From: Micromonospora sp. NBC_01796
Lineage (GTDB): Bacteria > Actinomycetota > Actinomycetes > Mycobacteriales > Micromonosporaceae
Reading direction: 5' to 3'
Length of the DNA: 64,000 bases
Assembly (NCBI RefSeq): GCF_035917455.1
Contig: NZ_CP109078.1
Location: 5,812,001 to 5,876,000, forward strand
The position numbers were made by a program, and so were the translations under genes. Under the pieces are notes generated by a model. It saw only the letters and a program-made list of their open reading frames with translations, searched no databases and was not told the DNA's origin. Of this stretch, positions 12,284 through 64,000 are shown piece after piece (position 1 is the stretch's first letter; the number at the start of each line of letters is the position of its first letter).

Positions 12284-12820
12284 CAGCCATTCGGTTGCGG
12301 TGTGCACCTCGGTGGCGGCATTGAGCGGGGTCTCGATCGGTGTACTGGTGTGGGCGTCGACCTGGTGGCCGCCGCAGCCGGTGGGGTCGGAGTCACAGCT
12401 GAGGGAGATCGTTGTGTGCACCTGCCATGGCGGTCCGGGGCGGTGGTACGGCATGCTGCCCGCTGGCGCGCACAGGACGTCCACCCAGATCTGATTCGAT
12501 CCCCCTTCGCCCGTCAATATCGTGACCGGGAACTCCGGTTCGGGCCCGAGCCGCTGGTAGCGGAAGCGGTTCAGGGAAGCCACAGAGCTGGGCGTCGGAT
12601 CGTGCACCCAGCTGCTGCCCGACCCGGAAGAGGGGTTCGTCGGCGGACTGCAGAAGCTGACGTACGCGGTTGTGTTCCGTCCGATCTGCCAGGGCGGGAA
12701 ACAGCCAATCGACCTTGCCTAGCGGCAGCGGAATGTTCCGGAGGTCACGGCTCAGTCTGTGTTGCCGAACCATGCTACGTCCACCCGTTACCTGTGCGCC
12801 GCCGTGCACGGTCGGCGGCA
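12280..12820. repeat. Segmental duplication, copy 1 (541 bp; copy 2 at 16777-17320)
   Basis: The sequence from TAGCAGCCATTCGGTTGCGG to GGTCGGCGGCA matches 16777-17320 nearly base for base over its whole length, in the same orientation. Copy 1 is 3 bases shorter (two missing near 12564-12574, one near 12739). Differences are mostly single substitutions. Similarity stops abruptly at both ends. Confidence 0.9.
12284..12748 (-). pseudogene. Decayed copy of the 185-residue unknown gene at 16691-17248
   Basis: This is the duplicate of the intact gene at 16691-17248, carrying two frameshifts relative to it: one base lost just after the start codon and two lost in the middle, where the intact protein reads LWGVPLNRFRYQRLG. 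The duplication also ends before the last ~30 codons, so the C-terminus here runs into transposase-remnant sequence. It is therefore non-functional. The still open middle part encodes the block LNRFRYQRLGPEPEFPVTIL and IETPLNAATEVHTATEWLL seen in the intact copy. Confidence 0.8.
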
Positions 12821-12987
12821 TGAGAGTGCATGTGATCTTTCAACAGAAGGTGTGCTGGTACGGGCAGTCGTCGCAGCGTCAACGCAGCATTGCTCGACCA
12901 GTCAGGCCACTGGGTCACCACAGAGCGGGAGGGCATTCCCTCTCCAGAGGGAGGCTGTCCGGTGCGGTCGTTCCTACGGTGAGTGGC

Positions 12988-13971
12988 ATGAAGAGGAATG
13001 GACGCGCCGCGGAGGCGACACCAGGAGGCTACTGGCCGAGTGTTGGGCGCGTTGCTGCGTACGGCGCGGTGTTCGCGATGGCACCGTACTTCGTGATGAA
13101 GGTCTACTGGACGATCGACGGACTGCGCGGCGGGGGACTGCACGAAGGAGCCTGGAGCCACTTGAACTGGGCGACAATTAATGGGTTGACGGTGGCGATG
13201 TCTGGGCTGGCCATGCTGCTCGGCCTTGCGCTGGCGCAGCGATGGGGCCTGCGGGTACCAGGCTGGTTAATACTGCTCCCGGGCTGGATCGGGATGGGTT
13301 TCCTGGTGCCGATGATTCCGGTCATACCGTTTCTTGCGCTGGTGAGCACGGATACCGGCGCCACCGCCGCGGAAGCGCAGATGACTGCCTGGGAAATCGG
13401 TCTGCTGTCGGTGTCGTTCGCCGGGTTCGCGCTCGGTCTGGCGATCGCCGCTCCGGTCTACGCCGTACGGCGGTGGCCGGACGGGTTAGTCGGCGCGGGT
13501 GTCCCTGGGCGGCCGGGCGTGCGGGTCACTGTGGCCCGATTGGCGGCGGCGCTCTGCCTCGCCCTCGGCCTGCCGCAACTATTCTGGGCGCTGGGCGGAA
13601 CGATCGGCTTGAACGGGGCGACGCTCGACGGCCGCGACGCGCAGTGGCACCTACTTACCGCCAACAGCGGAGTGTGGGCGTTGGGCGCCGCGTGGAGCGC
13701 ATGGACGCTGACCCGCAACACCGGTCGGGTGCCCCTGCTGCTGTCGTGGCTGGCTTCCGGGTTCCTGTTCGCGTGGGGGTCGTGGAAGGCAGTCTTCTCC
13801 TTCGCGGTGACGCCGGAGTTTCCGCCGCCGGAGCAGTTGTGGACGCTGGCGCTGCAGAACCATTTCGGCGCGGCTGCCGGGCTGCTAGTCCTTGTCGTAA
13901 TCCTTCTCACGGTGTCTGAAAAAGCTGAGCGGAGCCGCGCCGTCGGCGGACCCGTGCCGGATGCCAACTGA
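12988..13971 (+). CDS. Multi-pass membrane protein, unknown function
   Basis: This encodes 327 residues from the ATG at 12988, preceded by GGTGAGTGG. About eight hydrophobic segments are visible, for example AAYGAVFAMAPYFVMKVYW, GLTVAMSGLAMLLGLALA, GWLILLPGWIGMGFLVPMI, IGLLSVSFAGFALGLAIAA, LAAALCLALGLPQLFWALGG, LLLSWLASGFLFAWGSWKAV and AGLLVLVVILLTV, connected by short loops. There are no catalytic or transporter motifs I recognise. Similar proteins occur as orphan conserved membrane proteins in actinomycetes. It ends 19 bp before the first 18-bp repeat core (13990). The start upstream at 12670 would run through the segmental duplication and is rejected. Confidence 0.7.
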   Translation: MKRNGRAAEATPGGYWPSVGRVAAYGAVFAMAPYFVMKVYWTIDGLRGGGLHEGAWSHLNWATINGLTVAMSGLAMLLGLALAQRWGLRVPGWLILLPGWIGMGFLVPMIPVIPFLALVSTDTGATAAEAQMTAWEIGLLSVSFAGFALGLAIAAPVYAVRRWPDGLVGAGVPGRPGVRVTVARLAAALCLALGLPQLFWALGGTIGLNGATLDGRDAQWHLLTANSGVWALGAAWSAWTLTRNTGRVPLLLSWLASGFLFAWGSWKAVFSFAVTPEFPPPEQLWTLALQNHFGAAAGLLVLVVILLTVSEKAERSRAVGGPVPDAN

Positions 13972-13989
13972 TGCGGGACACCCGCTCAT

Positions 13990-14085
13990 CGACAGTTCAG
14001 GATCCTGCACGACCAAGCGACTCGTCACCGAGCGTGGCCGCTTCGATCGGCGAGCACGCCCGGACGGCGGCAGATCCGGATGCCC
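13990..14085 (+). repeat. Dispersed repeat unit A (two 18-bp cores 78 bp apart)
   Basis: The left core CGACAGTTCAGGATCCTG (13990-14007) and the right core CGGCAGATCCGGATGCC (14068-14084) bracket an internal segment with CACCGAGCGTGGCCGCT, which matches the GAGCGTGACGGCT segment of units B and F. The left core is the most diverged. It starts 19 bp after the stop of the membrane-protein gene. Confidence 0.65.
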
Positions 14086-14209
14086 GATCTTGGAATCGAC
14101 GCGCGCTACCTGCGGCAGTGCAGGCGTCTGGCTGATTGGGCATCTTTGCGAGATTTCCGGCTCCTGGCCGGAGCGTTCCCGGTGGTACGTCGAGGACCGA
14201 AACAGGTGA

Positions 14210-14782
14210 TCAGGAGCTGCTCCACAGCGTCAGGTCACTGCTCGTAGCGACAGCCAAGGTGCGCCCGGATGGGGAGAAACCAGCAGCGCGTAGCTCGGAA
14301 TAGTCGGCGTGGAGGATATGCCACCACTTCTCGCCCGCCGGGCCACGGCACAGTCCTCCGTCGGCCGAGAGTACGACTCGATGATGCGGCCAGTCCGGGC
14401 TGACCACATCAACGGTCCAGCCATCCTCAGTCGTGGTGTGCAAACCACCACCAAAAAGACCCGCGATCCGGACTCGCGTCCCGGCAATAGGGCCCAGACC
14501 TGGACAACTGAGGTCTGGAACCGCATCCGGGTAAGCCGACTCTGGGTCCGGTGTTCGATCCCTGGCGATCTTGGCCCCGGTCGTCGCGTCGAACAGGCCG
14601 TGGCCGTCATGGGACACGACCATAACTAGGTCGTTGCCTGAGTGATCTGCGGAAAAGCCGATCCCCACAAGGCCTCCGATCGGCACCTGCCGGTCGAGCA
14701 CAAGCCGCCAAGGACCTGGCGGGGGCATCACCGGGGCGGAGAGGAAGCGTTCACGCAGTCCCCGCTGGTATTCCGTCAGCAT
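14210..14782 (-). CDS. Unknown protein, beta-rich (WD40-like phrase at C-terminus)
   Basis: This encodes 190 residues from the ATG at 14782. The sequence is strand-rich, with recurring short strands ending in Gly-Asp or Ser-Asp turns (LVMVVSHDGHGLFDATTG; FSPSGRTLAVATSSDLTLW). The last phrase looks like one beta-propeller blade ('FSPDGRTLAVAS...VRLW'), but the protein is too short for a full propeller. The N-terminus (YQRGLRERFLSAP) is helical. I do not recognise the family as a whole. The gene lies alone on the minus strand and is bracketed by repeat units A and B, so it behaves like a self-contained insert. It could be an orphan immunity or effector-neutralising protein, but nothing in the sequence proves that. 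Confidence 0.6.
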   Translation of the reverse strand: MLTEYQRGLRERFLSAPVMPPPGPWRLVLDRQVPIGGLVGIGFSADHSGNDLVMVVSHDGHGLFDATTGAKIARDRTPDPESAYPDAVPDLSCPGLGPIAGTRVRIAGLFGGGLHTTTEDGWTVDVVSPDWPHHRVVLSADGGLCRGPAGEKWWHILHADYSELRAAGFSPSGRTLAVATSSDLTLWSSS

Positions 14783-14874
14783 CCCTCAGCACCCCTCATG
14801 TCGCGCTTGGCGTATGTTAGCCAGTCTCGCAACTTGGGCAGGAAGTACCTACGGGGGCTCGGGTGCACTCAACT

Positions 14875-14971
14875 CGGCAGTTCAGGGTGCCGGCGCCCCT
14901 GGACGCCGGACACCAAGCGTGACGGCTCATCGTCTGCCTGCGCCCACGATCAACGGCAGATCAGGATGTCG
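14875..14971 (+). repeat. Dispersed repeat unit B (best composite copy, cores 79 bp apart)
   Basis: Core CGGCAGTTCAGGGTGCCG (14875-14892) is followed by a 61-base segment containing CACCAAGCGTGACGGCT, then ATCGT and ACGAT as short inverted arms around CTGCCTGCGCCC, then the core CGGCAGATCAGGATGTCG (14954-14971). It aligns without gaps to unit F (20204-20300) over the first 79 bases. It lies between the 190-residue unknown gene and the CoaD-like gene. Confidence 0.75.
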
Positions 14972-15046
14972 CCTGTGACGAAAGGCCCGATGTCGGGTCA
15001 GCACATGTACGGCTGGGATAATCGTAACCATGTGGTTGGAGTTGCG

Positions 15047-15529
15047 GTGACGGCTACGTCGGATCGTGGAGTGGTGCCGACACCTGGTTCGTTGGTGGTC
15101 TATCCCGGTACGTTCGATCCGTTTCACTCGGGGCACCGGGACCTGGTGGCCCGTGCCCGGGTGATGTTCGACCAGATCATCGTGTTGCTGGCGGTGAACG
15201 CCGACAAGCGACCAACCGCCGAGGCCACGACCAGGGCCGCACGCGTGCGCGACGCCATGCCGGCAGCCTGGGGCAATGTTGAGGTGGACACCTGGACCGG
15301 TTTGACCGCCGCCTACTGCCTGCACCGCGGCGCCACAGTCATCGTCCGCGGCCTACGTACGGCTGCGGACCATCGTCACGAGTACCAGCTCGCTGCGATG
15401 AACGAGAAACTCGGCGTTCAGACCGTCTGGTTGCCGTCCCGTCCGCAACTGGCCGCCACTTCGTCTACGGTTGCCCGCGCATACCGCTCGGCACAGTCGA
15501 CCCGTCCCTCCCTGAACGCTAAAGGGTGA
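15047..15529 (+). CDS. Phosphopantetheine adenylyltransferase-like protein (CoaD paralogue)
   Basis: This encodes 160 residues from the GTG at 15047, behind TTGGAG. This length equals normal CoaD (about 160), whereas an upstream start would run back into repeat B. The nucleotidyltransferase signature is clear: YPGTFDPFHSGHRDLV (T/HxGH motif, residues ~17-32), a Lys in VNADKRPT, the Arg-bearing GLRTAADHRHEYQLAAMN (CoaD has GLRxxxDFExExQMAxMN), and ATSSTVAR in place of ISSSLVK. CoaD transfers AMP from ATP to 4'-phosphopantetheine in coenzyme A synthesis. Residues differ from housekeeping CoaD (His-Arg-His for Phe-Glu-Tyr, a longer K loop), so this is probably a horizontally acquired paralogue with altered substrate, not the essential copy. 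It stands 76 bp from the convergent recombinase gene and 75 bp after repeat B. Confidence 0.8.
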   Translation: MTATSDRGVVPTPGSLVVYPGTFDPFHSGHRDLVARARVMFDQIIVLLAVNADKRPTAEATTRAARVRDAMPAAWGNVEVDTWTGLTAAYCLHRGATVIVRGLRTAADHRHEYQLAAMNEKLGVQTVWLPSRPQLAATSSTVARAYRSAQSTRPSLNAKG

Positions 15530-15605
15530 TCCCAGGGGTCGCGGATCGCTGGTAACGCCTTCGAGATGAAAAGCACTGTTCTCGGCAGACCCGCTCGCGC
15601 GGTCG

Positions 15606-16523
15606 CTAGGTTCCGGAGGCCATGTAGGCGGCGAGGATGTAATTGGGGTGGCGGTCGAGGTTCTTGCGGGCACGGTCGTAGCGCATGGTGGTGCGGGGGT
15701 CGGCGTGACGGGCGGCGATCTGTACGTCGCAGAGGCTGACACCGGCGTCGAGCATGGTGGTGACGAAGGTGTGGCGCAGCATGTGCGGGTGCATCCTCGG
15801 CATCCGTATCCCGGCGTGGGCGGCGAGGAGTTTGAGTCGGCGGGTCGCGGCGTGCCGGTCCATCCTGGTGCCGAGGGTGTTGCGCAGGATCGGGCCGTCG
15901 AGGTGGCCGTCGACCGCGCGGTCGACGGCCCTCGCCACCGCGGGTGGGAGTGGGATGAGGACGACCTTGCCGCCCTTGCCGCGTACCCGGAGGACACGGT
16001 GGCCGTGCTCCTCGCCGAGGTCGCCGATGTTCGAGCCGCAGGCTTCGAAGATCCGGAGCCCGAGAAGTCCGAGCATGGCGATCAGCGCGAAGTCGTTCGG
16101 GTTGTCGGATTGTCGTGCGGTGGTGATCAGTGCTTCGAACTGGAGGTGCCCGAGCCCGAGGGTGGGTGATTCGGGTGGGACCACCGGTCTGCGGACGTAG
16201 TCGGCGGGTGAGTGCGGGAGGATGTCGTCGATGACGCAGACGCGGTAGAAGCCGATCACCACCGACAGGCGGCGGGACACGGTCGAGGGCTGGAGCCGCC
16301 GTACGTCTTGAAGCCAGCGCACGTACCGCTCGATGTCGACGCGCGCGGCCGACAGTGGATCCAGGTCCTGGTCGGCGCACCAGGTCAGGAACACGCCTAG
16401 GTCGGAGTCGGTATGCGACCGTGTGTCACCTCGGTACCGACCGAGGTAGGCGGCCACCGCCGCACGGAGGACGCGGCGATCAGGAGAGACAGGACCGGGA
16501 CCGGAAGCGGGAGAGGTAGTCAT
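15606..16523 (-). CDS. Tyrosine recombinase / XerC-XerD-like integrase
   Basis: This encodes 305 residues and is intact. The N-terminal SAM-like core-binding domain (about residues 15-110) includes SHTDSDLGVFLTWCADQDL and STVSRRLSVVIGFYRVC. The catalytic domain (about 125-295) has all key residues: Arg in LLGLRIFEACG, Lys in RGKGGKVVLIPL, the HxxR of HPHMLRHTFVTT, His in QIAARHADPRTT, and the nucleophile Tyr in MRYDRARKNL. The length is typical of Xer-like and of many integron- or cassette-type recombinases. The extra helix that distinguishes integron integrases cannot be judged by eye. It lies in the middle of the repeat-bearing island and is the only intact recombinase in the window, so it is the natural candidate to act on local repeats. 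That link is inference. Confidence 0.9.
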   Translation of the reverse strand: MTTSPASGPGPVSPDRRVLRAAVAAYLGRYRGDTRSHTDSDLGVFLTWCADQDLDPLSAARVDIERYVRWLQDVRRLQPSTVSRRLSVVIGFYRVCVIDDILPHSPADYVRRPVVPPESPTLGLGHLQFEALITTARQSDNPNDFALIAMLGLLGLRIFEACGSNIGDLGEEHGHRVLRVRGKGGKVVLIPLPPAVARAVDRAVDGHLDGPILRNTLGTRMDRHAATRRLKLLAAHAGIRMPRMHPHMLRHTFVTTMLDAGVSLCDVQIAARHADPRTTMRYDRARKNLDRHPNYILAAYMASGT

Positions 16524-16690
16524 ACCTCACGGTGCGTCACGCTCAAAGGCAGCGCCAACACTCGCCAGGCGACAGATCCGGACGGCGGGGTGAGTGGCGT
16601 CGCGCCCGGTGACCACCGGCTTTGCCCTATGGGGCCGCCGCATTCGCTGGGCCACCCTCGGCAGGCCGGTGGGGTGATGCGCGGTTCGTG

Positions 16691-17248
16691 TCAGTCGCGG
16701 CGTCGGGGTGCGGGTGGGTGACCGCGGTTCGGGTCGTGTTTTCGGAGGGAGCCCTCGCTTTCGTTGGCGAGTCGTTGTAGCAGCCATTCGGTTGCGGCGT
16801 GCACCTCGGTGGCGGCATTGAGCGGGGTCTCGATCGGTGTACTGGTGTGGGCGTCGACCTGGTGGCCGCCGCAGCCGATGGGGTCGGAGTCACAGCTGAG
16901 GGAGATCGTGGTGTGCACCTGCCATGGCGGTCCGGGGCGGTGGTACGGCATGCTGCCCGCTGGGGCGCACAGGACGTCCACCCAGATCTGATTCGATCCC
17001 CCTTCGCCCGCCAGTATCGTGACCGGGAACTCCGGTTCGGGCCCGAGCCGCTGGTAGCGGAAGCGGTTCAGGGGGACGCCCCAGAGCTGGGCGTCGGATC
17101 GTGCACCCAGCTGCTGCCCGACCAGGAAGAGGGTTTCGTCGGCGGACTGCAGAAGCTGACGAACACGGTCGTGTTCCGTCCGATCTGCGAGGGCGGGGAA
17201 CAGCCAATCGACCTTGCCTAGCGGCAGCGGAATGTCCCGAGAGGTCAC
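16691..17248 (-). CDS. Unknown 185-residue protein (intact parent of duplicated gene)
   Basis: This encodes 185 residues from a GTG start at 17248. The N-terminus DIPLPLGKVDWLFPALADR is followed by helices (VRQLLQSADETLFLVGQQLG). A strand-rich centre contains LNRFRYQRLGPEPEFPVTIL and GGSNQIWVDVLCAPAGSM, then a region with four His/Cys positions (HTTISLSCDSDPIGCGGHQVDAH) that might bind metal. A final helix (TPLNAATEVHAATEWLLQRL) precedes a basic tail. I do not recognise the family. A frameshifted copy lies at 12284-12748 inside a 0.54-kb duplication. The gene is downstream of the recombinase on the same strand when read from right to left, but 167 bp separate them. Confidence 0.6.
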   Translation of the reverse strand: MTSRDIPLPLGKVDWLFPALADRTEHDRVRQLLQSADETLFLVGQQLGARSDAQLWGVPLNRFRYQRLGPEPEFPVTILAGEGGSNQIWVDVLCAPAGSMPYHRPGPPWQVHTTISLSCDSDPIGCGGHQVDAHTSTPIETPLNAATEVHAATEWLLQRLANESEGSLRKHDPNRGHPPAPRRRD

Positions 17249-17320
17249 GGCTCAGTCTGTGTTGCCGAACCATGCTACGTCCACCCGTTACCTGTGCGCC
17301 GCTGCGCACGGTCGGCGGCA
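16777..17320. repeat. Segmental duplication, copy 2 (544 bp; copy 1 at 12280-12820)
   Basis: The direct-repeat partner of 12280-12820. This copy keeps an open reading frame and is presumably the donor or the better preserved one. The two copies enclose about 4 kb containing the membrane protein, the 190-residue unknown, repeats A and B, the CoaD-like gene and the recombinase, so recombination between them would excise that block. Confidence 0.9.
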
Positions 17321-17403
17321 GAAGAGTGAGCCGGGAGCCATTGCGGAGTGGCGTCGAAACAGTGCGAGGTCAACCTGTCTTGCTGACGTTGGAGCTGTTG
17401 CCG

Positions 17404-17616
17404 TCATTCGGCAAAGGCAAGGCCATGCTCGGCCAGCGCTGCGGCCAGGATGCTGACCGCCTTCGGCCCGACCCCGTGCAGGGCCAGTAGATCGCGGCGG
17501 CTGTAGGCGCTCACTTGCGCAAGCGTCGTGATGCCAGCTTCGAGAAGGGCGCTGTTGGCTGGTCGCCCGATCGGTGGCAGGTCGCCGATTTGTTCGGGCA
17601 CATGGCGAGCACTCAC
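17404..17616 (-). CDS. Small helix-hairpin-helix DNA-binding protein
   Basis: This encodes 70 residues when started at the GTG at 17616. A longer frame reaching 17835 overlaps the neighbouring HAD-like gene and is rejected. The body is one HhH unit of the type seen in the RNA polymerase alpha C-terminal domain and DNA-repair proteins: IGRPANSALLEAGITTLAQV, then YSRRDLLALHGVGPKAVSIL with the hairpin sequence HGVGPKA, then AAALAEHGLAFAE. Such stand-alone small proteins are frequent in actinomycetes and bind DNA backbone non-specifically. The role is unknown. It lies 95 bp beyond the stop of the HAD-like gene, same strand. Confidence 0.75.
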   Translation of the reverse strand: MSARHVPEQIGDLPPIGRPANSALLEAGITTLAQVSAYSRRDLLALHGVGPKAVSILAAALAEHGLAFAE

Positions 17617-17711
17617 GCGATCACGATAGCCAGCCGCACCGCCGATCCGCGAAACCGGACCACACCTCGCCTCGCCGGGGTACCCGATCGGCGGCATGAG
17701 CGTGCAGGTGA

Positions 17712-18236
17712 TCAAGCTGGGTTGCCGCCCTGCGCCAGCCATTGACGGATGACTGAGAAGTCCGCTTCGGTCAGGCCTGTGTATGGGTCGACGCGGTGCA
17801 GCAGCGCCCGCGTCGGGTGATGGGCCACGACCCATCGCTGGTCGGTATCGGTTGTCTCGTCGTCAAGCCAGACGAACGATCGTCCTGCTGCCCACCGGGT
17901 CAGGAACACGGTCTTCCAGTGCAGACCGTGCCCCGGATCCTGGTCGTCGTCCGGCCAATCGACCACCGGCAGGACTAGAAGCCCGAGCCGTGGTGAGACG
18001 ACCTCGTTCGCATCCGCCATCCATGTCGTTGCCCAGACCAACTCGCATCTCAGGGCCAGCAGCCTGCGGCCGTCGCTTGGGTCAAGCCGATCGAGCAAAG
18101 GATTGCCGGTGCTGTCCGGTGGCTGTGTGGCGGCACCGATCGAGGAACGTCTCCGGCCAGCTGGCCGGGTTTTGAACGGGATCAGTGGGCCGTCTACATC
18201 GAGGAAGATCAAGGGGCGGTGGGTCAGGCCGGGCAT
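17712..18236 (-). CDS. HAD-like domain protein
   Basis: This encodes 174 residues from the ATG at 18236, which directly precedes the conserved phrase. The phrase RPLIFLDVDGPLIPF is HAD motif I (DxDG with the nucleophile Asp about residue 12). ELVWATTWMADANEVVSP carries motif II (the Thr of ATTW). The Lys of HWKTVFLTRWAAG is motif III. VWLDDETTDTDQRW contributes the motif IV acidic DD pair. It therefore keeps all four motifs of a small cap-less haloacid-dehalogenase-fold phosphohydrolase. Substrate is unknown. Similar 'HAD domain' proteins occur as accessory genes in actinomycetes. It is the most upstream of a run of minus-strand genes, with repeat core D 116 bp upstream. Confidence 0.8.
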   Translation of the reverse strand: MPGLTHRPLIFLDVDGPLIPFKTRPAGRRRSSIGAATQPPDSTGNPLLDRLDPSDGRRLLALRCELVWATTWMADANEVVSPRLGLLVLPVVDWPDDDQDPGHGLHWKTVFLTRWAAGRSFVWLDDETTDTDQRWVVAHHPTRALLHRVDPYTGLTEADFSVIRQWLAQGGNPA

Positions 18237-18351
18237 CACGCTCGAACCGTATCGTGGGGCCGATCCGGGCTGGGCCGGGTACGTGCACCCTTCGGGGCAC
18301 GGCCGGACGTCGAGTCCCACTTGCTGACTACCGTGGGCCGCCCTCGCTCGG

Positions 18352-18369
18352 CGGCAGATCCGGATGCCG
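18352..18369 (+). repeat. Dispersed repeat core D (solo)
   Basis: CGGCAGATCCGGATGCCG, the 18-bp core with C at the variable ninth-to-tenth position. No partner core or internal segment is recognisable 79 bp to the left. It sits in the divergent gap between the HAD-like and the HEAT-like genes. Confidence 0.7.
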
Positions 18370-18432
18370 TCCTCCTCTCTGATCACGGCGGCACCGGGAG
18401 TTGAAAAGCTCGGCACGGACCCGCGGAGACCG

Positions 18433-19557
18433 GTGCTCCATACTCTTGCGGTGCGGCACGAGGAGCTTCTGGCGCGGACCGACTGGTCGGCGGTCGAGCA
18501 TGCGCACAGCGGGATGCCGGAGGTGCCGCGGACACCAGAGATCCTCGCGGCTCTGCTGAGCGACGACGCTGTACGTCAGGCCAGGGCGCTTGGTGATCTC
18601 TACGGGATCATCCACCACCAGGACACCATCTACAGCGCGACAGCACCGGCGGTGGACTTCGTTGTCGCGGTGCTCGACGCCCCGCGCATGCTCACCCCGG
18701 TGGCGGCGCGAGGCGGTGTCGGCACCGTACCGATGCGGGCCGCTTTGCTGGATTGGTTGACGTCGGTTATGGATGCGGTAGCGGCCTCGGGTGAAGCGGT
18801 CTCGGGTGAGGCGACGGACATCGACGCGTGCCGTGCCGCTCGCCCGCGTGTCTTTCGCGCCGCGTGGGCGATGCGTGAGGATCCTGACCCGGCGATCGTG
18901 CGTGCCGCGCTGGGCACGCTCGCATGTGTGTTGGACGACGGGTCAGAACTCAAACGCCACCGCCCCGAGGTGGCGGCCTGGATGGGTGAGCATGCTCTGG
19001 CTCGCTCTGACCGGTGTATCCGTGTCCTGGCGGTTTTGACTCTCACGTCCTGGGCGTACGACACCTCGCCGGTTCTTCGCGACGATCCGGATGCCGTGGT
19101 ACGGGCAACCGCCGCGCTCTCGCCCGCCTTTGCTGTCAAGCCGGAGGGGACCCGGGCGCTTATCGATGTTCTGTCCAATCCGGCCGATGCAGCCTGGTGT
19201 CAGCAGATTCTTCCGTATTTCGGGCGGATCTACCCGTTCAAGCTGCTGCCTGTGGCGATCGACCGGGCCACGCTGGAGGAACTCGTTAGGGCTTTGGGGC
19301 TGCTCCTCGCCGAACCACCCGATGGCACGTACGTCGGCGACTGGGGCGCAAGGCTGCGTGCGAAGGCGTTCCCGGGCGGGTTCCCGCCGCCGCAGCCGCT
19401 CGACGCGACTCAGCAGGCACTGTTGGACCTGGTCGCGATGCACTGTTTCGGTCCAGCCGCCCCGCCGCGTCGGTTCGCCGCCGACACCCGGATGGCGCTG
19501 CGCGGTCTCGTGCCAGGCGGCCAGGTCTCCCAAGGCGCGGCATCCGCAGAATGGTGA
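18433..19557 (+). CDS. HEAT-repeat-like protein
   Basis: This encodes about 374 residues. The GTG at 18433 has a GGAG 4 bases upstream; a GTG at 18451 is equally possible, and an ATG at 18364 lies inside repeat core D and is unlikely. The N-terminus (TDWSAVEHAHSGMPEVPRTP, LLSDDAVRQARALGDLYG, IIHHQDTIYSATAPAV) is the hallmark start of a bacterial HEAT-like family in which short helical repeats follow a 'W...EHAYG...VP' entry. Paired helices continue throughout (DPAIVRAALGTLACVL; DPDAVVRATAALSPAFAV). Such proteins act as scaffolds, and members are often found beside polymorphic toxin genes as candidate immunity proteins. No toxin is next to this one. It is flanked by repeat cores D and E. Confidence 0.7.
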   Translation: MLHTLAVRHEELLARTDWSAVEHAHSGMPEVPRTPEILAALLSDDAVRQARALGDLYGIIHHQDTIYSATAPAVDFVVAVLDAPRMLTPVAARGGVGTVPMRAALLDWLTSVMDAVAASGEAVSGEATDIDACRAARPRVFRAAWAMREDPDPAIVRAALGTLACVLDDGSELKRHRPEVAAWMGEHALARSDRCIRVLAVLTLTSWAYDTSPVLRDDPDAVVRATAALSPAFAVKPEGTRALIDVLSNPADAAWCQQILPYFGRIYPFKLLPVAIDRATLEELVRALGLLLAEPPDGTYVGDWGARLRAKAFPGGFPPPQPLDATQQALLDLVAMHCFGPAAPPRRFAADTRMALRGLVPGGQVSQGAASAEW

Positions 19558-19762
19558 CCAAGCCGGGCAGCGCGCACGACCAGGCAAGCTCCCGAGTCAG
19601 CCGCATAGCCACGCTGCTCCCGGAATTCGTCAGCACCTCGCGTCTCCGCCCATCGGCATGACCGGCGGTTGAGTCACACCTCTTTACGATGCGTAGCGTG
19701 CGGATTGCGGCACGACCCGAAGCCCTCGCACCTGGACGCATCACTGCTGACGATCGCTGAAG

Positions 19763-19815
19763 GTGACGGCTGCTCCGGCGCCACTGCACGCAGTCGGCGG
19801 CAGATCAGGGCGCCG
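19763..19815 (+). repeat. Dispersed repeat E (right half of the unit)
   Basis: GTGACGGCT at 19763 is followed 35 bases later by the core CGGCAGATCAGGGCGCCG (19798-19815), the same spacing as in unit B (14919 to 14954). The left core is not recognisable. The TCA inside the core supplies the stop codon (TGA) of the minus-strand gene ending at 19805. Confidence 0.65.
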
Positions 19816-20149
19816 TCAGTGAGGGGTGCCAGAAAGCGAAGTCGTCAGGCGGACCCAGGACAAGCGCTGTCATATCCAACAGCCGTTGGTAGTAGCTCGC
19901 CTCATAGCCGGCCAAGTGCGGTACCACTCGGGCGAGGTCCTGCTCGCGTGCTGCAAGAACATCCCACCACCGATCATCGAGGTCGCCGCCGTTGATCAGC
20001 CACGTACTGATGCAGCCGGCGGCGCCGGCATCGAGCATGACCATCTCGACCCCCGCGATGTCGACGGCCGTCAGACGGGCAGGAAACGCAGCCTCCCTGT
20101 GCGCCGCCCAGAGTTCGGCAACAGCCTTGATGCGGTCATCATCCGTCAT
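19805..20149 (-). CDS. Unknown 114-residue protein
   Basis: The ATG at 20149 begins MTDDDRIKAVAELWAAHREA. The rest alternates amphipathic helices and a few strands (VDIAGVEMVMLDAGAAGCIS; NGGDLDDRWWDVLAAREQDL; SYYQRLLDMTALVL) and ends in FAFWHPSLTAP. It is acidic overall and has no signal or membrane segment. I do not recognise a named family. Small acidic single-domain proteins of this look are common among actinobacterial accessory genes, including immunity genes, but this is only an analogy. Its stop codon is contributed by repeat E and unit F starts 54 bp upstream of its start, so the gene is tightly bracketed by two repeat copies. Confidence 0.6.
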   Translation of the reverse strand: MTDDDRIKAVAELWAAHREAAFPARLTAVDIAGVEMVMLDAGAAGCISTWLINGGDLDDRWWDVLAAREQDLARVVPHLAGYEASYYQRLLDMTALVLGPPDDFAFWHPSLTAP

Positions 20150-20203
20150 CCGGAACAGCCCTCCGATCGCCGGGACCCTTAAAGAGAGTAGGCACACTAC
20201 TTT

Positions 20204-20300
20204 CGGCAGATCAGGATGCCGGCACCGCGGGGGGCCGAACACCGAGCGTGACGGCTGGTCGTCTGCCTGTGCACACGACCAGCGGCTACTCGGTTCGTTG
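20204..20300 (+). repeat. Dispersed repeat unit F
   Basis: Core CGGCAGATCAGGATGCCG (20204-20221) is followed by 61 bases containing CACCGAGCGTGACGGCT and a perfect 9-bp inverted repeat GCTGGTCGT / ACGACCAGC around CTGCCTGTGCAC. The expected second core position (20283) starts CGGC but has diverged. It matches unit B along the first 79 bases. Confidence 0.75.
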
Positions 20301-20404
20301 ACCTGCGACCGTGGCCCGGCCAGGCTTCGGTCGAGACGCCCGGGCTGTCGCTCACTCTTCGGCTGCCACGCTGGTCGTGTGGCTCTCATTTTGCCTGCGC
20401 GGCT

Positions 20405-20640
20405 CGGGCACCGCCCCAGGGCGGGAGGGGCTCAAGAGCGCCTCTGTGTGTCAAATCCTTGCTGGGTGCCAGCTTGAGTTGATCTTTGATGAGGTGTCGG
20501 TAGAGAACCTTGGTCAGCCGCCGTTTCAGGCGGGTCGCGCCTCGGCGGGTGTCTTGCCCTCACGGAGTTTGCGCGGGTAGTAGACATGGCCGCGGGCGTC
20601 GAGGACGACGACCGTGAGTAGCCCGGTCTAGGGGCCGTCG
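20405..20640 (-). pseudogene. IS110-like transposase C-terminal remnant, frameshifted
   Basis: On the minus strand one frame reads VYYPRKLREGKTPAEAR and, after one frame change, the next reads RLKRRLTKVLYRHL. Together these resemble the C-terminal end of IS110-family transposases ('YYxRKxxEGKTPxEARRxLKRxLxxxxYRxL'). Nothing of the catalytic DEDD or Tnp-20 core remains. It marks an old insertion at the right side of the repeat-bearing island, directly downstream of the SUFU-like gene. Confidence 0.55.
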
Positions 20641-21296
20641 TTGCCACGTCCGGCCTCGCTTGGGGTCCGCGACGCCTGGTCGTCTGTTACTGAGGGCCGG
20701 TTCAGGTCGGTGACCAGTAGCGGCTGTCGTTCGCCAAGCATGGTCAGTAGACCGTTGGTGCCCCGCTGTCGAGCTTGCGCGTATTCGTCGGTGGTCAGGC
20801 CGACTACCTGCAGGAACTGCACTCGGCCGTGTGGAGTGTGGGTTGTCCCGAGTTCTGGGTCCTCGACGAAGGTTAGGGCCGTAAGCGCCGTTTCGTGGTC
20901 CTGGCGGATGGGGCCGTTGGCGTTGATGTGGTGGCCGGGTTCGAACCTGTTGCCGCTGGAGATCATGTACCGGGCGAGGTTCTGCAGCAGGTTTGCCGCC
21001 CAGATCGGCGGTGCGGTGTCACCGGTGTCGCGGGTGATCCGGATGGTGAGCTCGAAGCCCCAGCCCGACTCGTCGGGGTTGTCGGTTTCCTTGGCGTACA
21101 GCTCGCTCATGCCGTAGCCGATGGTGTGCCAGTGCGGCACGGGCTCGACACGCTGGTAGAAGCTGACACCGTCGAGCGGATCTGGTCCACCCAGCGCGAA
21201 GCGGTGCAGCGTGCCGTAGTGCTTCGGCTTCACATCGGGATACAGCTCGGCGAGCCGGGCGTCGATAGCGCCCCACCCGGGAGCTTCGGAGGTCAT
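20628..21296 (-). CDS. Suppressor-of-fused (SUFU)-like domain protein
   Basis: This encodes 222 residues from the ATG at 21296, which has a GGAG-like run upstream. The N-terminus (APGWGAIDARLAELYPDVKP, KHYGTLHRFALGGPDPLDGV) and the middle (HWHTIGYGMSELYAK, SGWGFELTIRI, PPIWAANLLQNLARYM) match the bacterial SUFU domain, in which a G-x-G-x-S-ELY turn and a W-G-FELT strand are typical. Bacterial SUFU proteins are known as immunity components in polymorphic toxin systems, where they neutralise secreted effectors. No toxin gene is adjacent, since the neighbour is an IS110 remnant. It may thus be an orphan immunity gene, or serve an unrelated role. Confidence 0.8.
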   Translation of the reverse strand: MTSEAPGWGAIDARLAELYPDVKPKHYGTLHRFALGGPDPLDGVSFYQRVEPVPHWHTIGYGMSELYAKETDNPDESGWGFELTIRITRDTGDTAPPIWAANLLQNLARYMISSGNRFEPGHHINANGPIRQDHETALTALTFVEDPELGTTHTPHGRVQFLQVVGLTTDEYAQARQRGTNGLLTMLGERQPLLVTDLNRPSVTDDQASRTPSEAGRGNDGP

Positions 21297-21798: not shown

Positions 21799-21804
21799 GA
21801 GCTC

Positions 21805-23292: not shown

Positions 23293-23295
23293 GCC

Positions 23296-23739: not shown

Positions 23740-23759
23740 CGGTGTCCTCGGTCGGGTGA

Positions 23760-58405: not shown

Positions 58406-59291
58406 GCTCCCCTCCTTCCGTTTGCGGCCTGTGGATGATGCCGTGGCCGGCCCACGGGCGGGCCGGACCGATCCAGTTCGGATGGCCGTGCTGAGCTCAC
58501 CCACGGCGGGCCTGGGTACGACGGCGGGCACCGTCGCGACAGGATGGGTGCGGGTCGTGAGCGAGCTGGGAGCGGTGAGTGTATGCGAATTCTTCGCTGC
58601 GACGAGCTGCGTGAGCCGGATCTTGAGCATTGCTTGAGGTGGTCGTCCAACCGCCCGCTCCAACCCGTACCCGTACCCGGAACCGACCTCGACGCGTGTG
58701 ACGATGTGGTCGAGGATTGGGCAGACGGTATTCCCGGCACGCTTGCGGTGCGACGTCGTCGGCGGGGTGGTGCGACAACACCACGTCGCCCACCCCGTCC
58801 GCGAGGGGAGGCATGACCACTCCGACAGGGGCGGACAGGACACCTGCCGGGCCCCGAGAAACGGGGGAGCGCATGTATGAGTTTCCCCCGCCTCGATAGT
58901 CATCGGTGTCCATCGATCGACGAGTGTCGCACGCACCGTGCTCACCGTCCGGCGACGGCCTTCGTCCAGGTCATCGACACGACCGAAGCGGCGGCCCCAC
59001 CATCCGCAGGTACGAAATCGCGTAACGAGCGGATCGCGGCATGACAGTGCGCGGAGTTCGCCGCCGGCCTGCGGGCCTGGTAGTGCGCCTGGCGCGCCGG
59101 CACTCCGTTCTCGCAATATCCGTTCCGGCGGTCCCACCGTTCGTTGCCGTCCCGTCAGTGGTCAAGTCTGAGCTCAGGCATCCGTAAGAGCACGGCCCGC
59201 GGGCACCACAGAGGTGATGGTTCTAATCCTGGCTTCAGGTTGATCGGGGAGGATGGGCGGCAAAGCATCGACTGGAAGGGGGCGGGCCGGC
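58406..59291. other. Long gene-free region upstream of carboxypeptidase and response regulator
   Basis: About 890 bp between divergent genes. Short open frames are present on both strands, with no ribosome sites or motifs. Several imperfect inverted repeats exist (for example GGTGGTGCGACAACACC near 58770). It must contain promoters for both flanking genes, but I see no small RNA or gene that can be supported. Confidence 0.5.
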
Positions 59292-59984
59292 GTGCGGATC
59301 CTGATCGCGGATGATGACGGGGCCATCCGTGAGTCGCTGGAGCGGGTGCTCCAGGTCGAGGGTTACGACACCAGCACCGTCGCCAACGGTCTCGCCGTGC
59401 TCGACGGGGTCGGTGGGGTCGGCGGTGACACCCTGGATCTGCTGATCCTCGACGTGATGATGCCCCGCCTCGGCGGGTTGGAGACCTGCCGGCGGTTGCG
59501 GGCGGCGGGTCGGGATCTACCGGTGCTGATGCTGACCGCCCGGGATCAGGTCTCCGACCGGGTCGCGGGGCTGGACGCGGGCGCCGACGACTACCTGCCC
59601 AAGCCGTTCGCCACCGAGGAGTTGCTGGCCCGGGTGCGGGCCCTGCTGCGCCGGCGCACGCCGACCGACGGGGAGTCGCAGATCCTGTCGTTCGCCGACG
59701 TCCGGCTCGATCCCGACGGGTTCGAGGCGTGGCGGGGCCGGCGGCCGCTGCGCCTGACCCGGACCGAGTTCTCCCTCCTGCAGGTCCTCATGCGCAACGC
59801 GACCCGGGTCTTGACCCGCGACGTGCTGTTCGAGGCGATCTGGGGCTTCGACATGAGCGCCACCGCCAACAACCTCCAGGTATACGTGAGCTACCTGCGT
59901 CGCAAGATGGAGGCCGAGGGTGAGCCGCGATTGATCTACACGCTGCGCGGCCTGGGATACACGTTGCGGGAGACTCCTCCGTGA
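59292..59984 (+). CDS. OmpR/PhoB-type response regulator
   Basis: This encodes 230 residues from the GTG at 59292, right before [19 protein letters not shown]. The receiver domain has the acidic pocket (ADDD), the phospho-acceptor Asp54 in [17 protein letters not shown], the Thr of LMLTARD and the Lys of PKPF. The C-terminal winged helix has [36 protein letters not shown] and the recognition part [15 protein letters not shown]. It resembles MprA/PrrA-like regulators of actinobacteria, which answer membrane stress. The kinase gene overlaps its stop by 4 bases, so both are translated together. Confidence 0.9.
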
Positions 59985-61432
59985 GCAGGCCCGCCGGCCG
60001 GGAACCGCGCCGGCTGACCCGTTGGTGGCGGCGGCGGTCCCTGCGGACCAGGCTGACGGTGATCGCTGCGACGGCCATTGCGGTCAGCGTGTTCGTAGCC
60101 TTCCAGGTGGCCAGCGAGCTCCTGGACTGGGAGCTGCAGGACACCGCCCAGAATCAGCTACGCGCCGACTCCCTCGTCCTGGCGACGAGCGCAGAGCGCG
60201 CCGGTCTGGCGCAGGTCGAGCTATCGCCGTATCCCGGATCCGGTCGGCTGGTGCGGGTCATCCTGCCCGACGGGTCGACCCGGACGCCGGCCGGTCAACC
60301 CGCGCTGCCTCCGGTCAGTGGGCCCGCCGGGCGCGTGGCGCAGGGCGGGCTGGCCGACCTGATGGAGTCGAACGACAGCGACGAGGACGGCTACGTCATC
60401 TACACGCTGCGGGCGGGCGACGGCGCGGTCCAGGTGGCCCGCGTCGTCGACGACAGCCCGATCAACCGGTTCGGGTTCGGCATGTTGCTGATCGGGCTGT
60501 TCTGCGTGGCCGGGGGCGCCCTTGTCGGGCGGACTGTGGCGCGGGCCGGGCTGGCACCGATCGACCGGCTGACCGCCGCCGCGGTACGTGTCGCGCACAC
60601 CCGGGATCTCGACGCCGACATCCCGGATGAGGGCGGTGGGGAGATCCGGCGGCTGACCCAGTCGATCAACGACATGCTCGCCGCGCTCCGGGACTCCCGG
60701 CGGGCCCAGCGGCTGCTCGCCGAGGACGCCGCCCACGAGCTCAAGACCCCGCTCACCAGCCTGCGCCTCAACGTCGAGCTGCTGGTCCGGCTCAATCGGC
60801 GCGGCACCCTGGACAGCGCACTGCCGGCGGAGAGCCGGACCCGGCTGCTCAACGATCTCGGCGCCCAGGTGGCCGAGTTGAGCACCCTTGCCGCCGAGCT
60901 GACCGAGGTGGCGCGCGGTGACGTCAGCGACGAGAACACCGAGCTGCTCGACCTCGCCGACGTGGTGGTGGCCGCCGCGACCCGGACGCGTTCCCGCGTG
61001 CCCGACATCGAGGTCGCGCTCGACGTGACCCCCGTGTGGGTGAGCGGGCGTCCCGCTGCGCTCCAGCGGGCGGTGCTCAACCTCATCGACAACGCCGGCA
61101 AGTGGTCCCCCGCGGCCCAGCCGGTCCAGGTCCGGCTCCGTGCCGAGGGCGCGTCGGCGGTGCTCGAGGTCGACGACGCCGGGCCGGGCATCGACGCCGT
61201 CGATGTACCGCGGGTGTTCGACCGGTTCTACCGTGCCGAGAGCGCCCGGGCGTTGCCAGGATCCGGTCTGGGGCTGTCGATCGTGCAGCGGGTCGTCGAC
61301 GACCACGGCGGCCGGGTCACCGTCGCCCGCTCCGCACGCGGTGGCGCGCTGCTTCGGGTCGACCTTCCGGCCGCGGCCCCGCCCGCCCCGATCGCGCGGC
61401 TCACCCCCGGGGAGGACACCGCGGTGCGCTGA
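59981..61432 (+). CDS. Sensor histidine kinase
   Basis: This encodes 483 residues from a GTG overlapping the response-regulator stop. Two membrane helices ([20 protein letters not shown], about 25-45; [20 protein letters not shown], about 160-180) enclose a ~110-residue extracytoplasmic sensor. A HAMP segment follows, then the HisKA box with His252 ([20 protein letters not shown]). The ATPase domain has N box [13 protein letters not shown]1 [12 protein letters not shown] box [11 protein letters not shown] and G2 [13 protein letters not shown]. It pairs with the regulator upstream. It is convergent with the MMPL transporter gene, so the transporter is not in the same transcript but could be a target. 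Confidence 0.9.
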
Positions 61433-61489
61433 CCCGCCCCGGCGGCGCGGCGCAGGACCAAAGGGCGGCGACCGTCGGGCCCATGAAAC

Positions 61490-61521
61490 GATCCGGGACG
61501 GGCTGGGCCCCGTCCCGGATC
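61490..61521. terminator. Bidirectional terminator between kinase and MMPL genes
   Basis: Perfect 13-bp stem GATCCGGGACGGG / CCCGTCCCGGATC (61490-61502, 61509-61521) with a 6-base loop in the gap between convergent stops at 61432 and 61540. Confidence 0.8.
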
Positions 61522-61539
61522 TCGTCCGTGCCGCCTCGC

Positions 61540-63684
61540 TCACCGTTGCAGCACGGGCTCCTCGTCGGCGGCGAGCGACTCTTGACCGTCCGGCAGCTCC
61601 ACCGGTCGGGACAGCCGGCTCGGCCACCAGATCCGCCGGCCGATCAGCAGGGTGAGGGCGGGCACCAGGACCGACCGCACCAGCAGGGCGTCGAGCAGCA
61701 CGCCGAAGGCGACCAGGAATCCGACCTCGACCAGCATCACCAGCGGAAGTGTGGCGAGGACCGCGAACGTGGCCGCCAGGACCAGGCCTGCCGAGGTGAT
61801 GACGCCACCGGTGGCGGAGAGGGCTTTGAGCATGCCCTCTCTGGTGCCGAGCCGCACGGTTTCCTCCCGTGCCCGGCTGACCAGGAAGATGTTGTAGTCG
61901 ACGCCGAGCGCCACCAGGAACAGGAATGCCAGCAGCGGCACCGAATAGTCGACGCCCTTGAACCCGAGGATCGTGTCGAAGACGAACACACTGCCGCCGA
62001 AGGCTGCGGCGAATGAGATGATCACGGTGGCCATCAGGACCAGCGGGGCCACGAACGCGCGCAACAGCAGCCCGAGGACGATCAGGACGACGGCGAGCAC
62101 CAGCGGGATCACCAGCTTCTCGTCGCGGCTGGTGGTCACCGCGGTGTCGAGGTTCTCCGCGCTCGGCCCGCCGACGATCGCCTCCGCCCCGCTCACCGCG
62201 TGCACGGCGGTGCGCACCCGCTTGATCGTGTCGTACTCCGCGACGGTGTCCGGCGCGTCAGCCGGGAACACGGAGATGTCGGCCCAGCCACCGCTGGTCT
62301 CACCCGGGATCGCCAGAGTCACGCCGGGAGTGCGCTTGACGATGTCGAGCACCCGCTCCTGGTGCGCCGGCCGCGTGAAGATCGTCATCGGCTGGCCGCC
62401 GAGCTCGGGGAAGTGCTGGCGGAGGACGGTGAAGCCAGTGACCGACTCCGGCGCGGACAGGAACTGGTCCTGCTCCCGCAGGACGCCGGTGTTGCCCGCC
62501 AGGCCGATGGCGAGCACGCCGAGGACTCCGAGCGAGCTGAGCGTCGCCACCCACCGGCGGCGGCTGATGGCGGTGCCGAGCCGTCCCCACAGCCCCGGCT
62601 TCTCTTCCACGACCGTGCTGAACCGTGGGATGGCCGGCCAGAAGATCCGCCTGCCGAGCACCACGAGCACCGCCGGGAAGAGCGTCAGCATGGCCACCAG
62701 CGCGCACAGGATGCCGGCCGCGCCGATCGGGCCCAACCCGCTGGTGCTGTTCAGGTCCGCGACGAGCAGGCAGAGCAGGCCGGCGATCACGGTGGCCGCG
62801 GACGCGACGATGGCCGGCGCCGCGCCGCGTAGCGCGTGAACCATCGCAACCCGGACGTTCTCGTGGTGGTGCAGTGCCTCCCGATATCGAGCGATGAGCA
62901 ACAGCGCGTAGTCCGTGCCGACGCCGAATACCAGGATCGTCAGCAGCGCCGAGTTCTGGTCGTTGACCACGATGCCGAAGCCCTTGACGAGGAGGTAGAC
63001 GGTCGCCATCGCGGTCAGTGCGGCCGCGCCCACGGCCACGAGCGGGATGAACCACAACACTGGGCTGCGGTAGGTGAGGATCAGCAGGAGCGTGACGACG
63101 ACGACGGTGGTGAGGAGGACCTGCATGTCGATGCCGTCGAAGACGGCGTCCACGTCGCCGTCGATCGCGGCCGGGCCGGTCACGTCGAGTTCCAGGCCGC
63201 CGGGGCGGTCCTTCGCGGCGTCACGCAACGGGCCGACGATGGCCTCCGGTGCGCCGTAGGTCGTGCTCACCTCGAGGGTGAACATCATCGCCCTGCCGTC
63301 GGTGGAGAGTCTCGTCAGTGGGCCCTCGTCGTCCTCGCCAGCCGCCGCCACCTTCGGCGGGTACCGCTTGGCAAGGGTGCTGTGGTGGCGCTCGACCGTC
63401 GCGCGGTCGGCGTCGGTCATGCCGCCGACGCGGTGGTACACGAAGACGAACGTGTTGTCCTCGCCGCCGGGGAGACTGTCCTCCAGCACCGCCACCTTGG
63501 TGGACTCGGCGCTGGCTGGCAGGGTGTCCGCGGCTTTGTCGGTGGTGACCGAGCTCAACTTTCCGCTCAGCGGCACCATGACCGCCGCCAGCGCCAGCCA
63601 CAGGCCGATCACCAGCCACGGCACCCACCGGCCTGCCAACCGACCGGGCGGCACTTCCCTGGGCGGCGCTGCGTTGACTGACAT
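61540..63684 (-). CDS. MMPL-family RND transporter
   Basis: This encodes 714 residues from the ATG at 63684, which has AGGAGG 7 bases upstream; a frame reaching 63990 lacks a site and a homologous N-terminus. A single N-terminal helix is followed by a large extracytoplasmic loop, then blocks of five helices, twice. Motifs include FGVGTDYALLLIARYREALH and, in the second half, LVALGVDYNIFLVSRAREET, each with the D-Y pair of the proton relay of MmpL proteins. MMPL transporters export lipids, pigments or antibiotics, or act in drug tolerance, using the proton gradient. The substrate is not predictable. Its promoter region is shared with a divergent gene at the right edge. Confidence 0.9.
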   Translation of the reverse strand: MSVNAAPPREVPPGRLAGRWVPWLVIGLWLALAAVMVPLSGKLSSVTTDKAADTLPASAESTKVAVLEDSLPGGEDNTFVFVYHRVGGMTDADRATVERHHSTLAKRYPPKVAAAGEDDEGPLTRLSTDGRAMMFTLEVSTTYGAPEAIVGPLRDAAKDRPGGLELDVTGPAAIDGDVDAVFDGIDMQVLLTTVVVVTLLLILTYRSPVLWFIPLVAVGAAALTAMATVYLLVKGFGIVVNDQNSALLTILVFGVGTDYALLLIARYREALHHHENVRVAMVHALRGAAPAIVASAATVIAGLLCLLVADLNSTSGLGPIGAAGILCALVAMLTLFPAVLVVLGRRIFWPAIPRFSTVVEEKPGLWGRLGTAISRRRWVATLSSLGVLGVLAIGLAGNTGVLREQDQFLSAPESVTGFTVLRQHFPELGGQPMTIFTRPAHQERVLDIVKRTPGVTLAIPGETSGGWADISVFPADAPDTVAEYDTIKRVRTAVHAVSGAEAIVGGPSAENLDTAVTTSRDEKLVIPLVLAVVLIVLGLLLRAFVAPLVLMATVIISFAAAFGGSVFVFDTILGFKGVDYSVPLLAFLFLVALGVDYNIFLVSRAREETVRLGTREGMLKALSATGGVITSAGLVLAATFAVLATLPLVMLVEVGFLVAFGVLLDALLVRSVLVPALTLLIGRRIWWPSRLSRPVELPDGQESLAADEEPVLQR

Positions 63685-63943
63685 CAATAGCCTCCTGACG
63701 GGTTGCATCGCTTGTCCGAGGCCAACTTCGTACCGAGCGAATCTGAGACGACCGTTAATCCGGTGATCAGACCGGTTGGCAAGGCCCAGGCACACAGCCG
63801 TCGGACCGGATGAGCAACGCGGCACGGCTCTCGTGCGGGTGTCGAACGGCGCTCCGGGAGTGGTACCGCGGTACCACCTCCCTCCCGACGATGACGACCG
63901 CCGTACGACGAAACAAGACGGAATCTGTCCTAGCGTCCGGGCT
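63685..63943. other. Divergent intergenic region at the right edge
   Basis: About 260 bp upstream of the MMPL gene (minus) and of a partial gene (plus). An AGCGCC-like GC-rich stretch and a TAGCGT near 63931 may be promoter elements. No gene seen. Confidence 0.4.
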
Positions 63944-64000
63944 ATGAGGAAATCTGACAGTCCACGGTGGAAATTCGCGGCGGGCGCCATGACGCTGGTG
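63944..64000 (+). CDS. Start of a gene cut by the window edge
   Basis: From the ATG at 63944 an open frame reads MRKSDSPRWKFAAGAMTLV to the window end. There is no strong ribosome site, but a TAGCGT 10 bases upstream could be a -10 for a leaderless message. The basic start followed by an apolar run hints at a signal peptide or membrane protein. With 19 residues, no assignment is possible. Confidence 0.3.
   Translation, partial: MRKSDSPRWKFAAGAMTLV

Follow-up and report, generated by a model that had tools for sequence, protein, structure and literature searches.

Within a chromosomal integron, the attC sites resemble one another, and the cassette genes mostly share one orientation, in which they are read from the promoter Pc. 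The pdif sites are used by the host recombinases XerC and XerD; they alternate in orientation, and modules lie between inverted sites. The integron integrase IntI is marked by an extra segment in its catalytic domain, according to PMC8138268. Integrons are reportedly all but missing from the Actinobacteria; according to the IntegronFinder 2.0 report, this phylum is without complete integrons (PMC9024848). Two reports on Acinetobacter plasmids describe Xer-type recombination sites bordering gene modules (PMC12907356, PMC13141974). Here, we present a locus of the soil-type actinobacterium Micromonospora sp. NBC_01796, whose genome is a single contig of 8.56 Mb (NZ_CP109078.1). The analysed stretch of 64,000 nucleotides, positions 5,812,001 to 5,876,000, is called the window below. 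It contains a row of genes separated by copies of a ~100-bp unit, together with a tyrosine recombinase gene. Judged from sequence comparison, this region is very probably an array of cassettes put together by site-specific recombination, which would operate in the manner of an integron but consists of other parts. In the best reading these parts are an Xer-like recombinase, an attI-like site and an attC-like unit, and the system is not a classical integron.

A preliminary description of the DNA had listed seven copies of an 18-bp core, all in one orientation. The repeat proved real: with at most three mismatches, the 18-mer occurs six times in the 64-kb window, always on the plus strand, where 0.17 copies are expected and none of 100 shuffles reached six. 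The seventh copy, at 13990, is a weaker left core outside this set. A relaxed pattern, which like the strict one was designed after the sites were known, matched the whole 64 kb ten times on the plus strand (12815, 13989, 14067, 14874, 16569, 17691, 18351, 19797, 20203, 59036) and never on the minus strand. Units with two cores had been recognized at A, B and F; these can indeed be aligned over ~100 bp, and the same family is present in sister genomes. D and E are diverged units rather than lone cores according to the profile introduced below (18332, 11 bits; 19708, 30 bits), and single cores as a kind of their own are not supported. In unit F the left core and the interior are kept as reported, whereas the second core does not seem to have decayed by point mutation; IS110-like sequence takes its place from ~20283. 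The array is also wider than the proposed island (13990-20300), with further units or cores at 12792, 17292, 17691 and 59036. An Rfam scan of positions 11500-22000 gave no match at E ≤ 1, and the window contains no tRNA genes.

The unit consensus reads CTCTCATCGGCAGTTCCGGATGCC...CACCGAGCGTGACGGC...GCGCACGGTCGGCGGCAGATCCGG and spans ~100 bp; the left and the right core read in the same direction and carry CGRCA in their middle. By eye, the cores are possibly flanked by inverted half-site copies (about GATSMGKRYG). A unit model without structure was built from units of the window genome and two others (G001, G002). At E ≤ 0.01, matches turned up in 173 of the 250 family genomes, some of them by chance. 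The best match reached E ≤ 1e-5 in 99 of the 250 (a hand count from a scan that scored at most about 15 candidates per genome) and in 96 of 247 without the three model-source genomes. Among 197 other genomes sampled from the phylum, none reached 1e-5, and six had values of 5e-5 to 1e-3. With an iterated profile, 196 units of at least 12 bits were detected, versus none in reversed DNA; the 75 sequences scanned (1.41 Mb, window included) had mostly been chosen for holding a unit or a recombinase. The proposed search of related genomes met with arrays recurring across Micromonosporaceae in one orientation: neighbouring units (at least 10 bits, less than 5 kb apart; median spacing 1.3 kb) agree in orientation in 136 of 138 pairs, and orientation is uniform in 42 of the 44 loci that contain such a pair, the mixed ones being L091 and L110. 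As judged by eye, unit interiors are alike within one genome or array. In genome G218, four loci within 0.2 Mb (L105-L108) have near-identical interiors, at least 96% for the three compared pairwise, and differing flanks; this combination suggests recent activity.

The recombinase gene of the array is intact, as had been stated. Its product has a Phage_integrase domain with R, K, HxxR, H and Y in the expected places of an alignment of 26 sequences, residues which we take to be catalytic; in this alignment, the mean column identity across orders is 79%. The best models were NF001399 (102.9 bits) and XerD (100.8 bits), both under their own cutoffs. An AlphaFold model was poor (predicted local distance difference test score 66, below 50 for residues 243-305) and was left unused. 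A search of 61 genomes from the family and the order brought out a set of relatives ~65-93% identical, accompanied by many fragments. Eighty named loci, 68-96% identical, come from Micromonospora, Actinoplanes, Plantactinospora, Propioniciclava, Micropruina, Tessaracoccus, Ornithinimicrobium, Serinicoccus, Knoellia, Nocardioides, Kribbella, Kineococcus, Lentzea, Nocardia, Cellulomonas and others. Across the phylum the recombinase is rare: only two of 295 other sampled genomes matched at E ≤ 1e-60, with 46-48% identity. No relatives were found on plasmids at 1e-50. Phages gave 105 records at 1e-30, 104 of which are below 60% identity, and the ten listed are 46-47% identical.

The link between recombinase and repeat, which had been put forward as an inference, is strengthened by the position of the gene between the same two cores. 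GCGGCA lies 30-85 nt before the recombinase start in unit orientation at 41 of 68 loci (other strand, 1/68), and TCGGCA lies 10-50 nt after the stop at 41 of 73 loci (other strand, 1/73); these are the subsets of the 80 loci with enough upstream or downstream DNA. In Micromonosporaceae, the unit's right half moreover has its counterpart in the upstream region: among 31 loci, window included, 24 have the middle motif, 23 the right core and 22 both; 18 of the 22 show a distance of 40-42 nt between motif and core, compared with 41 in the unit (10 of the 80 loci were skipped, their upstream DNA being short or truncated). Since this ~60-bp region corresponds to the right part of the unit in motif and approximate spacing, it is regarded by analogy as attI-like and the unit as attC-like; cassettes may be inserted there. 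In Micromonosporaceae, the unit has the look of a left core joined to the attI-like region, minus the gene. Recombinase fragments furthermore lie inside arrays of sister genomes, namely at L066, which was fetched for its unit, and at L053 and L056, which were fetched for their fragments. At five loci with Actinoplanes-group recombinases (L147, L151, L157, L160, L166), both the middle motif and a unit-type core are missing upstream, possibly as a consequence of another insertion or of another site type. At L043 (10441-11645), the attI-like region is ~1.2 kb away from the recombinase start, as if an insertion lay between them.

Near recombinases of other actinobacterial families, cores likewise lie mostly in one orientation. 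Thirteen stretches of 15.7-20 kb were evaluated, six of 19 fetched having no recombinase of at least 55% identity. Strict cores numbered 40 in unit orientation versus 4 in the other, with 25 versus 1 on the 5' side of the recombinase and 15 versus 3 on the 3' side; two looser patterns gave 82 versus 26 and 178 versus 94. The clearest case is Tessaracoccus oleiagri (L231), with 8 versus 0 matches of the middle pattern outside the gene at a spacing of 0.6-2.3 kb. In Kribbella (L225) and Micropruina (L216), short units with two cores close together were seen by eye. Short tandem cores with a ~34-bp period occur directly upstream of the recombinase in Actinotalea (L217:1-120) and Nocardioides soli (L222:14420-14500).

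Copies of the unit and of the intervening genes indicate where blocks break. From 88 units, 20 pairs with interiors at least 88% identical and of equal length were compared position by position; these pairs are not independent, since members are shared, and one pair lies at contig ends. On the left side, identity was 0.68-1.00 within TCGGCA and at least 0.95 over the next 12 positions; on the right side, it was 0.80-1.00 in GCGGCA, then 0.55, and 0.2-0.5 further out. Left flanks differed in 19 and right flanks in all 20 pairs. The shared interior segment comprises ~85 bp and ends at the cores. A cassette of ~670 bp (673-bp alignment, 98%) shared by L115 and L116 extends from GCGGCA to GCGGCA; in one genome it comes after a unit, in the other after an attI-like region with no recombinase found beside it. 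A 614-bp block, found at two places in one genome with 99.5% identity, ends at GCGGCA. The 7.2-kb block that begins at window position 59036 and reaches G000:5878195 in the coordinates of the window genome is ~95% identical to DNA of G082, a genome from the genus of Plantactinospora mayteni; it starts with GCGGCA and ends with CTCACMTCGRCA, at a left core past the window, and its open reading frames (ORFs) include, by eye, an MMPL-type transporter and a sensor kinase. The recombinase block (15582-16571) recurs in Plantactinospora mayteni over 992 bp at 90%; it begins with TCGGCA and ends with GCG in the right core, which is GCGACA in the window and GCGGTA in Plantactinospora mayteni. One cassette is present in four arrays of the genus and ends at the left core before three kinds of unit (L065, L085, L053/L067). 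Between junctions there are genes in either orientation, the ~85-bp interior, or the gene of the recombinase together with its upstream region, and each of these three block kinds has examples elsewhere with ends at cores and unrelated flanks. The expectation that units mark borders of shared and unshared DNA was borne out in the inspected examples, where identity changes at the cores. The sister genome G002 is collinear with window positions 21804-33727 at 92%, including an RHS-like stretch, and the adjoining array is not; a comparison of window positions 1-21.8 kb with 80 kb of G002 gave no match at 1e-20, so that no empty allele of the array was found there.

These breakpoints bear on the alternatives. 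According to one of them, the unit is a mere miniature inverted-repeat transposable element (MITE), i.e. an internally deleted form of a one-gene tyrosine-recombinase transposon that inserted beside genes which are themselves immobile. The match of the unit interior to the recombinase upstream region at about equal spacing is in line with this idea, as are the common ends of the recombinase block and the 85-bp interiors and the near-identical copies far apart in G218. It is nevertheless unlikely: the neighbouring genes recur as blocks (~670 bp, 614 bp, 7.2 kb) with ends at cores and unrelated flanks, and independent insertions would not share one direction, whereas copies in both orientations beside immobile neighbours would characterize a MITE. 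Alternatively, homologous recombination between dispersed repeats might shuffle gene blocks with the recombinase as a bystander. Repeats of 80-100 bp with interiors up to 93-100% identical within a genome could provide the homology, and most block ends do lie away from cores. The inspected breaks, however, fall at a ~6-bp core, one cassette breaks at left cores before three different unit kinds, and the recombinase has its cores at a fairly fixed distance, all of which makes this explanation very improbable.

The preliminary description had placed the repeat outside the known attC type, and folding agrees with this. For 95 units, the mean z was -0.27 and -0.28 on the two strands, and RNAalifold gave -0.18 kcal/mol with three predicted pairs, none of them compensated. 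Six units folded singly on both strands had z values mostly near 0, with -2.8 and -3.1 for unit F. The inverted motif of the unit was considered as an attC-like stem and rejected, there being no compensated pairs and a mean z of about 0. A true integron with diverged integrase and diverged attC sites would account for an integrase with an upstream core, for cores mainly on its 5' side outside Micromonosporaceae, for mixed accessory-enzyme cargo and for arrays without a nearby integrase; we hardly credit it, since the integron integrase model TIGR02249 scores the recombinase at 38.1 bits (cutoff 265; only residues 221-285 covered), below the Xer-type models at ~100, and the units are unfolded and their cores direct rather than inverted. 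Identity with pdif modules was rejected because of the single site orientation and the dedicated recombinase associated with the cores.

For the cassette array we propose the following working mode. The recombinase would bind inverted half-sites (about GATSMGKRYG) on both sides of CGRCA in double-stranded DNA and cut within CGRCA. Circular cassettes would be excised and inserted at any unit or at the upstream site of the recombinase. The recombinase gene of Micromonosporaceae may itself have turned into a cassette, and the unit probably represents the ends of this cassette, copied with the gene deleted, so that the cassette would be the donor of the unit. The many arrays without a nearby recombinase, or with fragments only, may rely on a copy elsewhere in the genome.

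Several observations weigh against this reading. The profile was trained on the same loci that it then scanned. At 120 distinct block ends, CGRCA in unit orientation occurred within 16 nt in both sequences in only 26 cases (opposite orientation, 3/120; rates inside blocks, 11% and 7%); most ends overall fall away from cores, so that most blocks end elsewhere, by decay or other events. The distance ranges set for the cores at the recombinase contained no upstream GCGGCA at 27 of 68 loci and no downstream TCGGCA at 32 of 73. At 40 loci outside Micromonosporaceae, the middle motif was found in none, a unit-type core in 13 and both in none, and three stretches (L222, L227, L233) have no orientation bias under looser patterns. 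Recombinases are rarer than units: a whole or partial gene was present in only four of 40 loci fetched for units alone. The model leaves unexplained why a unit has two cores, and likewise the middle motif CACCGAGCGTGAC. Finally, cassette genes occur in both orientations (108 with and 94 against the unit direction among 202 ORFs), which makes an integron-style read-out from a single promoter unlikely. On balance, the cassette-like reading is upheld, and most of the tests suggested along with it were run and came out in its favour.

The cargo is diverse. An ORF is present in 117 of 135 inter-unit intervals; a Pfam scan of 147 of the 202 cassette ORFs yielded 126 families at E ≤ 0.001, none with more than eight members. 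They comprise hydrolases, NmrA/SDR proteins, methyltransferases, TetR regulators, glyoxalases and APH-type phosphotransferases. The CoaD-like cassette of the window has a second copy in L110 (84%), which there runs up to the left core of the unit that follows. Within the window, cassette DNA is duplicated: positions 12280-12828 and 16777-17328 are 94-98% identical, and both copies end at a right core GGCGGCA.

IS1111-group elements target attC. Here, an IS110-family element starts directly after the core sequence CGGC in five of seven distinct ends found, with a search pattern derived from two of its own matches. In unit F, IS110-like pieces replace the right core from ~20283, and the element starts at the same core point in other arrays. 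Starts after a left or right core CGGC were seen at L063:9829, L056:10856, L064:6113, L072:7673 and in L093, besides the remnant at ~20283 of the window. The features of the window are compiled in Table 1.

Table 1. Units, cores, cassette genes and related features of the window
Feature	Position	Strand	Score or remark
Right part of diverged unit (GTGCACGGTCGGCGGCATGAGAGTG)	12792..12828	+	15 bits; strict core at 12815; right end of duplicated block
Unit A: left core ATCGACAGTTCAGGATC, middle motif CACCGAGCGTGGC, right core GGCGGCAGATCCGGATG	13983..14085	+	55 bits
Cassette gene, 190 aa, without Pfam match	14210..14782	-	
Unit B, both cores well preserved	14868..14971	+	70 bits
Cassette gene, CoaD-like nucleotidyltransferase	15050..15529	+	PF01467, 2.3e-15
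Left core beside recombinase stop (CTGTTCTCGGCAGACC), left end of recombinase cassette	15577..15595	+	TCGGCA at 15582
Intact tyrosine recombinase, 305 aa	15606..16523	-	
attI-like region upstream of recombinase: motif CACGGTGCGTCAC (16528-16540), core GGCGACAGATCCGGACG (16568-)	16528..16585	+	
Core within this attI-like region (GGCGACAGATCCGG)	16568	+	45 nt before recombinase start
Cassette gene, 185 aa, without Pfam match	16691..17248	-	DNA 94-98% identical to 12280-12828
Diverged unit ending GCGCACGGTCGGCGGCAGAAGAGTG	17292..17330	+	17 bits
Core GATCGGCGGCATGAGCGTG	17687..17706	+	strict core at 17691
Cassette gene, HAD_SAK_2 domain	17715..18236	-	Pfam, 3e-10
Unit D, left half diverged	18332..18369	+	11 bits; core at 18351
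Cassette gene, 397 aa, without Pfam match (HEAT-like in the preliminary description)	18364..19557	+	
Unit E	19708..19815	+	30 bits
Cassette gene, 114 aa, without Pfam match	19805..20149	-	
Unit F: left core and interior preserved, right core truncated at ~20283 following AGCGGC	20201..20300	+	56 bits
Rearranged remnant, two pieces 70-75% similar to IS110-family element	20283..20605	no strand	
Left part of ~7.2-kb multi-gene cassette, start exactly at GCGGCA	59036..64000	+	

Just beyond unit F, a gene with a SUFU domain (20628-21296; Pfam, 5e-47) adjoins an RHS-like gene; the SUFU domain family is common among toxin-immunity proteins. Positions 24500-33700 hold a large minus-strand gene with RHS/YD-like repeats, as seen by eye, and a 324-bp repeat is present in 13 copies at 28148-32332 within this RHS-like stretch.

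Taken together, we consider it rather probable that Actinobacteria possess an independently evolved cassette capture of their own, in which a XerC/D-like recombinase has an attI-like site on its upstream side, double-core sites act as double strands, genes occur in either orientation and the recombinase is itself a cassette. If so, the integron principle would have been invented a second time, in bacteria ranging from Micromonosporaceae to Tessaracoccus, Serinicoccus, Ornithinimicrobium, Nocardioides, Kribbella, Actinotalea and others. It would indicate where such bacteria store shuffled genes, given the unit matches at E ≤ 1e-5 in 99 of 250 sampled family genomes, and would show to what degree the principle is independent of a folded attC site. 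A large set of uncharacterised cassette genes would become annotatable through their flanking sites, and the system may offer a double-stranded recombination tool for the assembly of actinomycete DNA. A literature search covering titles and the beginnings of abstracts of the papers listed, with subscription journals mostly uncovered, retrieved no description of this cassette system.

The comparison with described systems is as follows. The pdif (Xer-dif) modules of Acinetobacter plasmids are alike in that Xer-type sites flank gene modules, whereas here we find a dedicated recombinase, one site orientation, chromosomal contigs and two cores per unit. As in MITEs of a recombinase element, the unit keeps both termini of the recombinase cassette, namely the left core and the 60-bp upstream region, and lacks the gene; in contrast to MITEs, the gene blocks between units recur as well and have their ends at cores. 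Like the IS1111/IS110 elements in attC, the IS110-family element starts within a recombination site, but its target here is the new core. Compared with integrons, the recombinase is outside the IntI model, the unit is unfolded and has two cores of the same direction instead of a folded attC, genes occur in both orientations rather than mostly in one, and the Micromonosporaceae recombinase gene is itself bounded by cores. With sedentary chromosomal integrons, the locus shares a tyrosine recombinase, a core in its upstream region, by analogy an attI-like site, and a row of cassettes with sites in the same orientation. It also shares with them interiors that are similar within a genome, arrays lacking a nearby integrase, broken integrase copies, mixed cargo and IS110-family insertions in the sites.

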